The notes under the pieces are model-generated. The model saw only the letters and a list, made by a program, of their open reading frames with translations, searched no databases and had not been told where the DNA came from. Below, one piece after another: positions 1-3,142 of a DNA stretch of 22,606 nt (position 1 is the first letter of the stretch; every line of letters begins with the position of its first letter). The position numbers were made by a program, and so were the translations under genes. This DNA comes from a virus, in the IMG/VR virus record IMGVR_UViG_3300035126_000030, positions 1 through 22,606 of that record, one strand, 5' to 3'.

Positions 1-37
1 CCTCCATGGGATCGGATCACCTAACCCGATGACAAGA

Positions 38-66
38 ATCGTATCGGAACACATACCCAATGTCAA
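38..66 (-). promoter_or_regulatory. Sigma70-like promoter reading leftward out of the window
   Basis: On the minus strand, TTGACA (66-61) is followed after exactly 17 bases by TACGAT (43-38). That is a perfect -35 box and a good -10 box at ideal spacing. Transcription would start near 31 and run off the left edge. The last minus-strand bases (5-1) read GGAGG, a strong Shine-Dalgarno, so a start codon probably lies a few bases outside the window. An alternative is the minus-strand ATG at 54-52, whose frame stays open to the edge, but it lies inside this promoter. Confidence 0.6.
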
Positions 67-127
67 GCCAATCACAAAATATTTTTATTACAATTCGGCT
101 GCCGACGTCACAATCCAAAAAAATAAC

Positions 128-161
128 CCATCACCAAAACAGATCACACACCATCACCAAA
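128..161. repeat. Direct repeat CCATCACCAAA, two copies
   Basis: The 11-base word CCATCACCAAA occurs at 128-138 and again at 151-161, 23 bases apart. It lies in the A/C-rich part of the control region. Its role is unknown; it could be a protein-binding repeat or chance in a low-complexity stretch. Confidence 0.5.
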
Positions 162-181
162 CAAGATAGGCGAGACATCCA

Positions 182-220
182 CTAAGTTACTAATTGGTAA
201 GTTACCAGCCGGTAGCTTAG
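182..220. repeat. Nested inverted and direct repeats around TAAGTTAC
   Basis: TAAGTTAC occurs at 183-190 and 198-205. CTAAGTTAC (182-190) can pair with GTAGCTTAG (212-220) with a single G-T wobble, enclosing a perfect GGTAA-G-TTACC palindrome (196-206). This could be a protein-binding site or a cruciform-type element. It lies where strand composition flips. Confidence 0.45.
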
Positions 221-238
221 CGGGTTTAGTCCCTATGT

Positions 239-354
239 GGGGGTATCACCACTCTAAGCGTTCTCACTCTTAGTGTTCGCCCAACCACAGGCCCAAGCGA
301 ACATCTGTTCGCGCCAATCAGCGCATGGGGGTATGCCGAGGCATGCGGGGGTAT
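239..354. repeat. GGGGGTAT repeat, three copies
   Basis: GGGGGTAT occurs at 239-246, 327-334 and 347-354, all in the same orientation. The last two are 20 bases apart, about two helical turns, so a protein could bind them on the same face of DNA. An ATGCC-GA-GGCAT dyad sits between the second and third copies. Function unknown. Confidence 0.45.
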
Positions 355-406
355 GGATATGTGTAATGCTGTTTCTCTACGTGTGGTTTTGTGACCACTC
401 TGAGTG
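250..406. promoter_or_regulatory. Operator-like repeats CACTCTNAG(T/C)G, three copies
   Basis: The 11-base near-palindrome occurs as CACTCTAAGCG (250-260), CACTCTTAGTG (265-275) and CACTCTGAGTG (396-406). The last sits within the perfect 15-base dyad ACCACTC-T-GAGTGGT (394-408). The first two are 15 bases apart. Such spaced dyads typically bind a dimeric repressor or replication initiator; no such gene is in this window. Confidence 0.5.
297..312. promoter_or_regulatory. LexA/SOS-like box
   Basis: GCGAACATCTGTTCGC is a perfect palindrome with a two-base centre. Its core CGAAC-N4-GTTCG matches exactly the known LexA (DinR) consensus of Bacillus and the closely related actinobacterial site. A further TGTTCGC half-site lies at 274-280 and could pair with 297-303 in RNA. 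If real, host LexA, or a phage repressor using the same site, would act on a promoter here. No classic promoter overlaps it directly, which tempers the call. Confidence 0.5.
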
Positions 407-714
407 GTGGCTTGGGTGTGTGGGTGGTCAACTGGCTGCTTCCTTTTGGAGCATGGTTTGACCTTTGGGGTGGTAGGGAATTTTCGCATACGTGTGTGTA
501 TGTCGAATTCCTGTGAGGTAGGGAATGACAGTAGCTCCCCCCACGGTTCACCCTTTGAGGGTAGGTCGCCGTAGCCAGTTTGTTTTAGCCGACACCTTTG
601 GTTGATGATATGTCGTTCATCACGCTGCTTGAACTAGTGAATAGTTCATCGACCCAGGTTCCCCTGTTTATGCCCCGCCACCTGCAAACGTGGTACAGCC
701 ATGAAGATTGCTTC

Positions 715-847
715 GTGTGCCGTCATCCCGACGGGTGTGCGTGAGAGTGTAGCAGATGTTTTTGTAAATGTTGGTGGATGTGAGGAGGACCGGAGCCATC
801 CAGTTCATTTAAGTGCTGTTGCTCTACGGCACACCCACCAACGGTGG
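715..847 (+). promoter_or_regulatory. Possible pseudoknotted leader before terminase
   Basis: GTGTGCCGT (715-723) is complementary to ACGGCACAC (826-834), and GTTGGTGG (770-777) to CCACCAAC (835-842). The pairs interleave, which is pseudoknot topology. The right element can instead form a local hairpin, CCACC-AAC-GGTGG (835-847), and CCGTC-ATCCC-GACGG sits near 720-734. Competing folds suggest a regulated RNA or a DNA-binding structure. Whether this region is transcribed is not shown. Confidence 0.35.
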
Positions 848-853
848 TAGATT
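845..853 (+). promoter_or_regulatory. Extended -10 promoter candidate for leaderless terminase mRNA
   Basis: TGG-TAGATT matches an extended -10 element (TGN-TATAAT) at 4 of 6 core positions. No -35 is seen at normal spacing. A start near 860 would put the terminase ATG at or within a few bases of the mRNA 5' end, which would explain the absence of a Shine-Dalgarno. Weak evidence. Confidence 0.25.
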
Positions 854-862
854 ATCAGAACA

Positions 863-2842
863 ATGAGTGCAGGGCGTAGCGGGCGACGACAAGTTCCACC
901 ACAGGATGTTGCAAGGTTTTGGCAGGCTCGTGCATCGGGGATGTCTATTAAGGATGCTGCGAAGATTGCTGGTGTTCATTACAACACTGCCCAAAAGTGG
1001 GATGCGAAGAAGAAGATTGCTAAAGCTGAGATAGAGGTTGGGAAGTTGGAGCAGGGGACTGCCCGTAAGAAGGTGGGTGGTGTTCAGGCTGATGCTTGGG
1101 CGAAAGTGATGGATGTTTCTGATCTTCCACCTGTTATCCCATATGACCGTTTATCGGATGAGGCGAAACGTGGGTTAGAAGATTTCGATTATTTCAGGCG
1201 CAGGTATTTGGGGCGTATTCCGTCGCCGTGGCAGGTTGATGCCGCATACAAGATTGAGGATTATTTGTTGTCTGAGGAGAAACAGTTTGTGGTGTTGAAC
1301 TGTCCTCCAGGTGCAGGTAAATCCACCTTGTTTCACGATATTGCTGTGTGGCAGATTGTGAAGAACCGCAAGATTCGTGTGATGATCGGCTCCGTTTCAC
1401 AGTCTCTAGCGAAAATGTATTCGCGTCGTATTCGTGAAACCTTAGAGCGACAGTTCCCGCTTGACCCTGACCCTGTGCTGATTGACAAAGGTTTGGCGAT
1501 TAAAGCGGAAGCGTGTTTGGCGATTGATTACGGTAGGTTTAAGCCGTCAACTAGTGGTAGTTTGTGGCGGGCTGAGGAATTCATTGTCGAACAGGAGGAC
1601 ATGGGTGGATTGGATAACAAGGAACCAACTGTTTCTGCTTACGGTATTGAGTCTGAATTCATTGGTCATCGTGCTGACCTATGTTTGTTTGACGACGTTG
1701 CGAGTCCGGAAAATGCGAAAGAAAGTGCTGCGCGAGATAAACTTATTGAGAGGTGGGACTCAATGGCTGAGGCCCGCGTCGATCCAGGCGGCCTGCTTGC
1801 AGTTGTCGGACAGAGACTTGGCCCGCTTGATTTGTATGCCCACTGTCTCGCCAAAGTTACGTATGAAGATTTTGAGGACGATTACGACGGATCAGACACC
1901 ACGGACATCTCCCAAAACGTCGAGCCGTTAAAGAAACAAAAATATCATCACCTGATCTACAAAGCGTATTACGAGGAACTAGACACAGGTTTAGCGTCTA
2001 AACGCAATAGTTCCCCTGCTTGGCCGAACGGACCACTCCTAGACCCCCACCGTCTGTCATGGAAAGACCTGTCATACATCAAACATTCCAACCCCTCCAA
2101 GTTTGCGGTGGTGTATCAGCAGGAAGATCAAGCTGAAGGCAACTATCTGATCGAGCGTGTGTGGGCTACCGGTGGTGTTGGGCCTGATGGGGTGCTGTAC
2201 CCAGGCTGTGTGGACAATGAGCGTCGCCCAGGTCACGTACCCCACAACTTGCAACCCCCGTTGATTTCGATTGCCAGCGTTGACCCGTCGCCAACAATGT
2301 TTTGGGCTATCCAATGGTGGATATATCAACCTGAAACCAACCTTCGGTTCCTCATTGACGTGGAACGAGTCAAACTCACAGCCGAACAGTTACTCGGCTT
2401 TGATACCACAACCCGTGACTATTCGGGGATTATGGAAGATTGGCAGAACAGGGCTATGGACATGGGCTATCCGATCTCACACTGGGTGGTTGAGGTGAAC
2501 GCAGCGCAACGATTCTTGTTGGCACATGACTTTGTTCGCAAATGGCAGTCCCGACACAACGTAAACGTCATCGCGCACACCACCAGCCGTAACAAGATTG
2601 ACGAAAATCTTGGTGTGGAAGCGTTGCTTCCACAGTTGTTCCGTTCCGGTGCAATCCGAACCCCATCTATGCGGGAAAACTGGAAGACACTTGCCTTCAT
2701 CGAGGAACACTCGTCATGGACACGGGATAAAAAGAACGGTACTGACCTTGTGATGGCGTGTTGGATGGCGATGTTGCATTTACCTAACTTGTCACCGATA
2801 AGTCGGCCACAAAAGAAATGGCGACCGTCTTGGCTGGTGTGA
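863..2842 (+). CDS. terL: Terminase large subunit with N-terminal helix-turn-helix
   Basis: This is the ATP-driven motor and nuclease that cuts concatemeric phage DNA and packs it through the portal. The 659 residues are longer than a typical TerL (about 450-600). Residues about 15-47 form a helix-turn-helix of the kind found in small terminase subunits (around SIKDAAKIAGVHYNTAQKW). The ATPase follows with Walker A CPPGAGKST (147-155) and Walker B LCLFDDV (273-279, acidic pair D277/D278). The C-terminal RNase H-like nuclease shows D474 (ASVDPS), probable E544 (VVEVNAAQ) and D628 (GTDLVMACW). The start is fixed by an in-frame TAG at 848-850. No Shine-Dalgarno precedes the ATG. No separate small subunit is visible, so the fused domain may serve for DNA recognition, or the small subunit lies outside the window. 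Confidence 0.93.
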   Translation: MSAGRSGRRQVPPQDVARFWQARASGMSIKDAAKIAGVHYNTAQKWDAKKKIAKAEIEVGKLEQGTARKKVGGVQADAWAKVMDVSDLPPVIPYDRLSDEAKRGLEDFDYFRRRYLGRIPSPWQVDAAYKIEDYLLSEEKQFVVLNCPPGAGKSTLFHDIAVWQIVKNRKIRVMIGSVSQSLAKMYSRRIRETLERQFPLDPDPVLIDKGLAIKAEACLAIDYGRFKPSTSGSLWRAEEFIVEQEDMGGLDNKEPTVSAYGIESEFIGHRADLCLFDDVASPENAKESAARDKLIERWDSMAEARVDPGGLLAVVGQRLGPLDLYAHCLAKVTYEDFEDDYDGSDTTDISQNVEPLKKQKYHHLIYKAYYEELDTGLASKRNSSPAWPNGPLLDPHRLSWKDLSYIKHSNPSKFAVVYQQEDQAEGNYLIERVWATGGVGPDGVLYPGCVDNERRPGHVPHNLQPPLISIASVDPSPTMFWAIQWWIYQPETNLRFLIDVERVKLTAEQLLGFDTTTRDYSGIMEDWQNRAMDMGYPISHWVVEVNAAQRFLLAHDFVRKWQSRHNVNVIAHTTSRNKIDENLGVEALLPQLFRSGAIRTPSMRENWKTLAFIEEHSSWTRDKKNGTDLVMACWMAMLHLPNLSPISRPQKKWRPSWLV

Positions 2843-2875
2843 TACCTTTATAGGACTTACGCGAACAGAGGTTTT

Positions 2876-3142
2876 ATGGCAGCAGCAAAAAAGAAAAAAG
2901 GTGCAAGTAACCGTGCTGTTCAGGCACAAGCGGCCCGTAGCACTAAGCAGGGTTTGAAGTATGCGATGGAGGACCTCGTTGAAGCAGACAGGCAACGCAA
3001 AAACATGGGTCCAGATACCAAATTTTCTCCGCGTGTAGAGAAGCGTCTTGCACAAGCCAAGAAGTTTGTTTATGACAACCGTTTGGCATGGTCAAATCCA
3101 GCGAGTGTTGTAGTGAAGAAAGCACCAAAAAAGAAAAAGTAA
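2876..3142 (+). CDS. Small lysine-rich protein of unknown function
   Basis: This 88-residue protein sits between terminase and portal. Both ends are strongly basic (AAAKKKK at the start, KKAPKKKK at the end) around a predicted helical core. AGAGG about 6 bases before the ATG is a plausible ribosome site. The stop codon directly abuts the portal ATG, so the two are likely translationally coupled. The charge suggests binding to nucleic acid or to an acidic surface during packaging, but no family is recognised and the role is inferred only from composition and position. Confidence 0.75.
   Translation: MAAAKKKKGASNRAVQAQAARSTKQGLKYAMEDLVEADRQRKNMGPDTKFSPRVEKRLAQAKKFVYDNRLAWSNPASVVVKKAPKKKK

Follow-up and report, generated by a model that had tools for sequence, protein, structure and literature searches.

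The control region upstream of the terminase gene

Close to its left end, the window analyzed here (the whole 22,606-nucleotide viral stretch) carries a 16-bp palindrome, GCGAACATCTGTTCGC (297–312), in noncoding DNA between small leftward genes and a rightward operon that opens with the gene for the terminase large subunit (TerL) (Table 1). Further to the left, a near-identical 36-kb contig (L002; one difference in 8,839 bases) carries a small ORF on the opposite strand, and the region therefore lies between divergent transcription units. The core of the palindrome, CGAACATCTGTTCG, matches CGAACNNNNGTTCG exactly, and no second exact match occurs in either the window or its 22.6-kb record; by chance, 0.02 exact LexA-type cores with an RNNY spacer are expected per window. 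The box is flanked by G and C and lacks the T and A of actinobacterial sites (TCGAAC..GTTCGA). The original prediction had recognized here the CGAAC-N4-GTTCG site of Gram-positive LexA proteins together with an additional TGTTCGC; both sequences lie exactly where it placed them, and the LexA-type core is exact, with a spacer of exactly four nucleotides.

Table 1. Features of the terminase-side control region and the first structural gene
Feature	Position	Strand	Remarks
Leftward σ70-like promoter TTGACA-N17-TACGAT	38–66	−	For the divergent small-gene module; TTGACA block conserved in aligned relatives
Two 16-nt repeats, CACTCTAAGCGTTCTC / CACTCTTAGTGTTCGC	250–280	none	Third related copy at 396–411; separate repeated element flanking the box
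Extra half-site TGTTCGC	274–280	+	Overlaps repeat 265–280; not conserved; probably outside the operator
LexA/SOS-type box CGAAC-ATCT-GTTCG, core CGAACATCTGTTCG	298–311	none	Exact, unique in the window; class of site kept upstream of TerL in relatives
Promoter-like module GGTATGCCGAGGC-N19-TGTAAT	330–367	+	TGCCGAGGC in the −35 slot, TGTAAT (362–367) as −10
Terminase large subunit	863–2842	+	Opens the rightward structural operon; phrog_38, E 3.6e-64

The extra half-site had been proposed to act as a third arm of the operator, and this part of the prediction was not supported. TGTTCGC is over-represented in the window (10 copies against 3.85 expected), so that a third copy 17 bp from the box is weak evidence, and in an alignment of 12 relatives it falls in a variable stretch, whereas the full box is kept between divergent flanks. 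Pairing of 297–303 with the half-site, which had also been suggested, is seen in the RNA fold of 265–330, but that fold is no better than those of shuffled sequences (z −0.44). An RNA element was likewise rejected: neither an Rfam match nor a tRNA was found, positions 1–900 contained no terminator, and there was no covariation.

From the module downstream of the box, transcription is predicted to start at about position 374, which would center the box near −70. Modules of the form GGTNTGCCGAGGC-N~19-TATAAG/TATTAT/TGTAAT, directed toward TerL, occur at 39 loci. Sixteen of these carry a box with at most one mismatch 24–82 bp upstream, compared with 0/39 for the control palindromes listed, and one more, weaker match lies 103 bp upstream of its module. 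At four loci (L206, L210, L212, and L218) boxes directly abut a TTGAC −35 element, so that binding there should affect the polymerase directly; in L206, L210, and L212 a small conserved ORF (MNKQD...) follows these boxes. About 230 bp separate the leftward promoter from the box, and the promoter pattern was found once, against 1.0 expected in shuffled sequences.

Several other elements were noted in the region. The CACT-N3-AGTG repeats flank the box, relatives have similar CAC..AGTG(GTC) sequences in their control regions, and these repeats may bind another regulator. A GTTACT..GGTAAGTTACC motif at 186–215 is conserved in relatives, as is, strongly, a noncoding block at 532–598 between the promoter module and TerL (GCTCCCCCCACGGTTC...CAGGTCGCCGTAGC...TTTTAGCCGACACC in relatives), which has no Rfam match. 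The start of TerL itself (863–1000) is helix-turn-helix-like, with a weak HTH_3 match in the TerL proteins of relatives, and perhaps replaces a small terminase subunit.

Recurrence and base preferences of the box among related phages

Genes for a WhiB factor and an exonuclease of the YqaJ type lie on the longer contig L002. WhiB is present in 25 of 28 related records, and among 14 control genomes it has a match only in Corynebacterium, a distribution that places the host among the actinobacteria. The phages are a group of freshwater, WhiB-encoding actinophages. Positions 1–3000 have no DNA relatives in the cultured-phage collection, and TerL and WhiB scans of genome contigs, carried out in search of prophages and hosts, returned no relative in either case. 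Named phages are only distantly related, the nearest being Streptomyces Beephvirinae, with TerL 26% and capsid 45% identical and a similar gene order, and the Planktophila phage LanE43-AprE7 (OX376640), which is reported to lyse its host (PMC10202952). The Beephvirinae (Immanuel3, FlowerPower, and Zeigle) and LanE43-AprE7 have TerL and capsid proteins homologous to those of the present group, and in the Beephvirinae the resemblance extends to gene order and WhiB; all of them lack the box and the TGCCGAGGC module. Specifically, the box is absent from four Streptomyces Beephvirinae and from Planktophila phage E7.

A search of viral contigs with the exact 16-mer GCGAACATCTGTTCGC returned 24 stretches, of which only the window's own phage (L091) was taken further. 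The broader comparison used 105 nonredundant TerL-upstream regions, made up of a first TerL set and an independent set gathered by TerL alignment. Across these regions CGAAC-N4-GTTCG ranks first among all 1,024 N4 palindromes, with 18 sites at 15 loci, while control palindromes of the same composition occur at 0–3 loci each; CGAAC-N4-GTTCG is absent from the 238 kb of coding DNA that lies downstream, and the enrichment is limited to a spacer of four. Other palindromes in the same 105 regions include TTACC-N4-GGTAA (in 9) and CACCT-N4-AGGTG (in 10). Close relatives carry the box at the corresponding position, where its spacer differs and its flanks have diverged (ACCC, GGGT, AAGT, ACAC). When contigs were scanned for the box combined with GGGGGTRTG, a pattern blind to TerL, most of those returned encoded a TerL homolog (36 to 98% identical). 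Tandem arrangements also occur, with three boxes in L182 and three each in L106 and L105. Related phages thus carry the site in the same setting, as the original prediction had asked, and on these comparisons its recurrence makes it more than a chance occurrence.

The distribution of the box is nonetheless patchy. It is found in 15 of the 105 regions, and some phages with identical TerL do not have it; to account for its presence and absence, the TerL tree requires at least 14 changes, and decayed copies are visible in L053, L061, and L072. Together, these features fit with the box being an optional input, quickly gained and lost, and not a core part of the life cycle. Additional exact boxes that fall within genes, at SELLFD codons of the capsid and with a spacer other than RNNY, were set aside as the product of chance or codon constraint. 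Box-like sequences were also seen at G035:C1:4676, G037:C1:30475, and L132:5182; those of G035 and G037 encode CEQLFD at the 3′ end of the gene that immediately precedes whiB, and possibly reflect codon constraint or possibly a whiB operator.

The base preferences of the box resemble those of LexA sites. Among 33 nonredundant sites, the spacer is RNNY in 30 and its first position is never C, while the dyad ends do not covary (17 Watson–Crick pairs against 16.8 expected), a combination that argues for a protein-binding dyad rather than a hairpin. The one-mismatch sites adjoining the promoter module are mostly CAAAC..GTTCG. Both the RNNY spacer and the tolerance of CAAAC/GTTTG agree with the published Gram-positive LexA consensus, CGAACRnRYGTTYC (PMC2248561). 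LexA of Streptomyces venezuelae binds tCGAAC-N4-GNNCGa, and the phage sites share with the Streptomyces LexA regulon the core half-sites, the spacing, and the purine/pyrimidine preference of the spacer; they differ in lacking the flanking T/A and in their location, at a phage late promoter instead of host gene promoters (PMC9380542). A T precedes CGAAC in only 5% of the half-sites in the 33 sites, in contrast to actinobacterial SOS boxes. TCGA is under-used in the window (51 seen, 81 expected), and this general avoidance explains the missing T only in part. In L105, L106, L108, and L133, TCGA is almost absent (3 seen against 104 expected), which suggests avoidance of a host restriction enzyme.

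The likely ligand of the box

The site probably serves as an operator at which a LexA-type regulator, most likely the actinobacterial host's own LexA, would act as a brake on the TerL-side promoter until RecA is activated. With no damage to the cell, LexA would occupy the box as a dimer, some 30 bp ahead of the promoter module that reads into the terminase and structural operon, and would hold back this promoter, either by keeping off an activator or by keeping off RNA polymerase at a promoter that has no normal −35 element. Activation of RecA, whether by host damage or by the replication and recombination of the phage, would then lead to LexA self-cleavage and release of the structural genes. 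From the sequence comparisons we infer the identity of the ligand, the sign of its action (repression, not activation), an effect on late genes, and damage-responsive expression. Host LexA is the likeliest ligand because the phages themselves appear to encode neither an integrase nor a repressor of this kind: tyrosine integrases (PF00589) were found in 0 of 22 records, serine integrases (PF00239) in 0 of 19, the S24 repressor/protease (PF00717) in 0 of 30, and the LexA DNA-binding domain (PF01726) in 0 of 17, counts that are incomplete since several of the records are fragments. By these usual signs, the temperate or pseudo-temperate lifestyle hinted at by the earlier reading of the SOS-type site is not supported; what stands of that reading is the class of operator in a phage control region and its recurrence. 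Against host LexA count the rarity of the flanking T, the patchy presence of the box, its absence from the cultured relatives checked, and its predicted center near −70, which is not the classical position of a repressor.

A phage-encoded regulator that mimics the specificity of LexA could bind the same sites and time phage genes independently of host damage. We consider this unlikely, although the missing T does set the sites apart from host SOS boxes, weak helix-turn-helix candidates are encoded, and small unannotated proteins are common in these phages. LexA and S24 domains were not found, most HTH_3 matches are to the N-terminal helix-turn-helix of TerL, and no phage protein family was found in every clade with the box and in none of the rest, which argues against a phage regulator without excluding it. 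It is improbable that host LexA binds with little effect, or that the site is a by-product of a mosaic control region, a weak site gained and lost without consequence: the patchiness, the decayed copies, and the number of changes on the TerL tree would suit such a site, but its strong enrichment over every control palindrome and the preservation of its core between diverged flanks would not. Finally, that the palindrome is a hairpin or cruciform, for instance near a terminal repeat or packaging site, is highly improbable, since, although related Streptomyces phages have direct terminal repeats adjoining TerL, the left end of the FlowerPower record is repeated at its right end, and a 31-nt stretch folds well (z −3.9, as expected of any palindrome), both compensatory changes and stem extension are absent, one-mismatch forms break a pair, boxes also occur in tandem and adjoining −35 elements, and they are gained and lost among phages with identical TerL.

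A possible SOS-type input in actinophages

Temperate phages and plasmid-prophages provide the best-known cases of phages that use host LexA. The Bacillus tectivirus GIL01, in which host LexA and the phage protein gp7 control the lysogenic promoter P1, resembles the present case in having SOS boxes in a phage promoter region, no classical CI-type repressor, and host LexA as sensor (PMC4551915). GIL01 is, however, a temperate linear plasmid-prophage with a corepressor, whereas the phages described here are tailed actinophages with no sign of lysogeny, in which a putative LexA box lies beside the TerL-side promoter. Streptomyces tectiviruses have been scanned for LexA sites and none were found (PMC6950372), and a literature search of incomplete coverage returned no report of such sites in lytic actinophages. 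Virulent phages do co-opt other host regulators, CtrA and Spo0A. In the CtrA-dependent lytic deferment of Alphaproteobacteria phages and with the Spo0A sites of phi29, too, phages of unrelated lineages carry clusters of sites for a master regulator of the host in their intergenic promoter regions; the regulators and signals are different, and CtrA binding and regulation were established experimentally, whereas the present evidence comes from sequence (PMC9437464). Co-option of host LexA by phages is thus already known, and a recurrent box beside the TerL-side promoter of integrase-less actinophages would represent a new variation on it.

It is conceivable, if doubtful, that an actinophage lineage with neither integrase nor repressor has repeatedly gained operators for host LexA at its structural-operon promoter, such that late expression awaits RecA, a form of SOS-gated lytic deferment in seemingly purely lytic phages. 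If this is true, then phages without a visible repressor or integrase may sense the damage alarm of their host, and the phages of an abundant, hard-to-culture group would time their late genes by host DNA damage. The SOS box would then also be a marker of deferred lysis that could be put to the test in phages from metagenomes.
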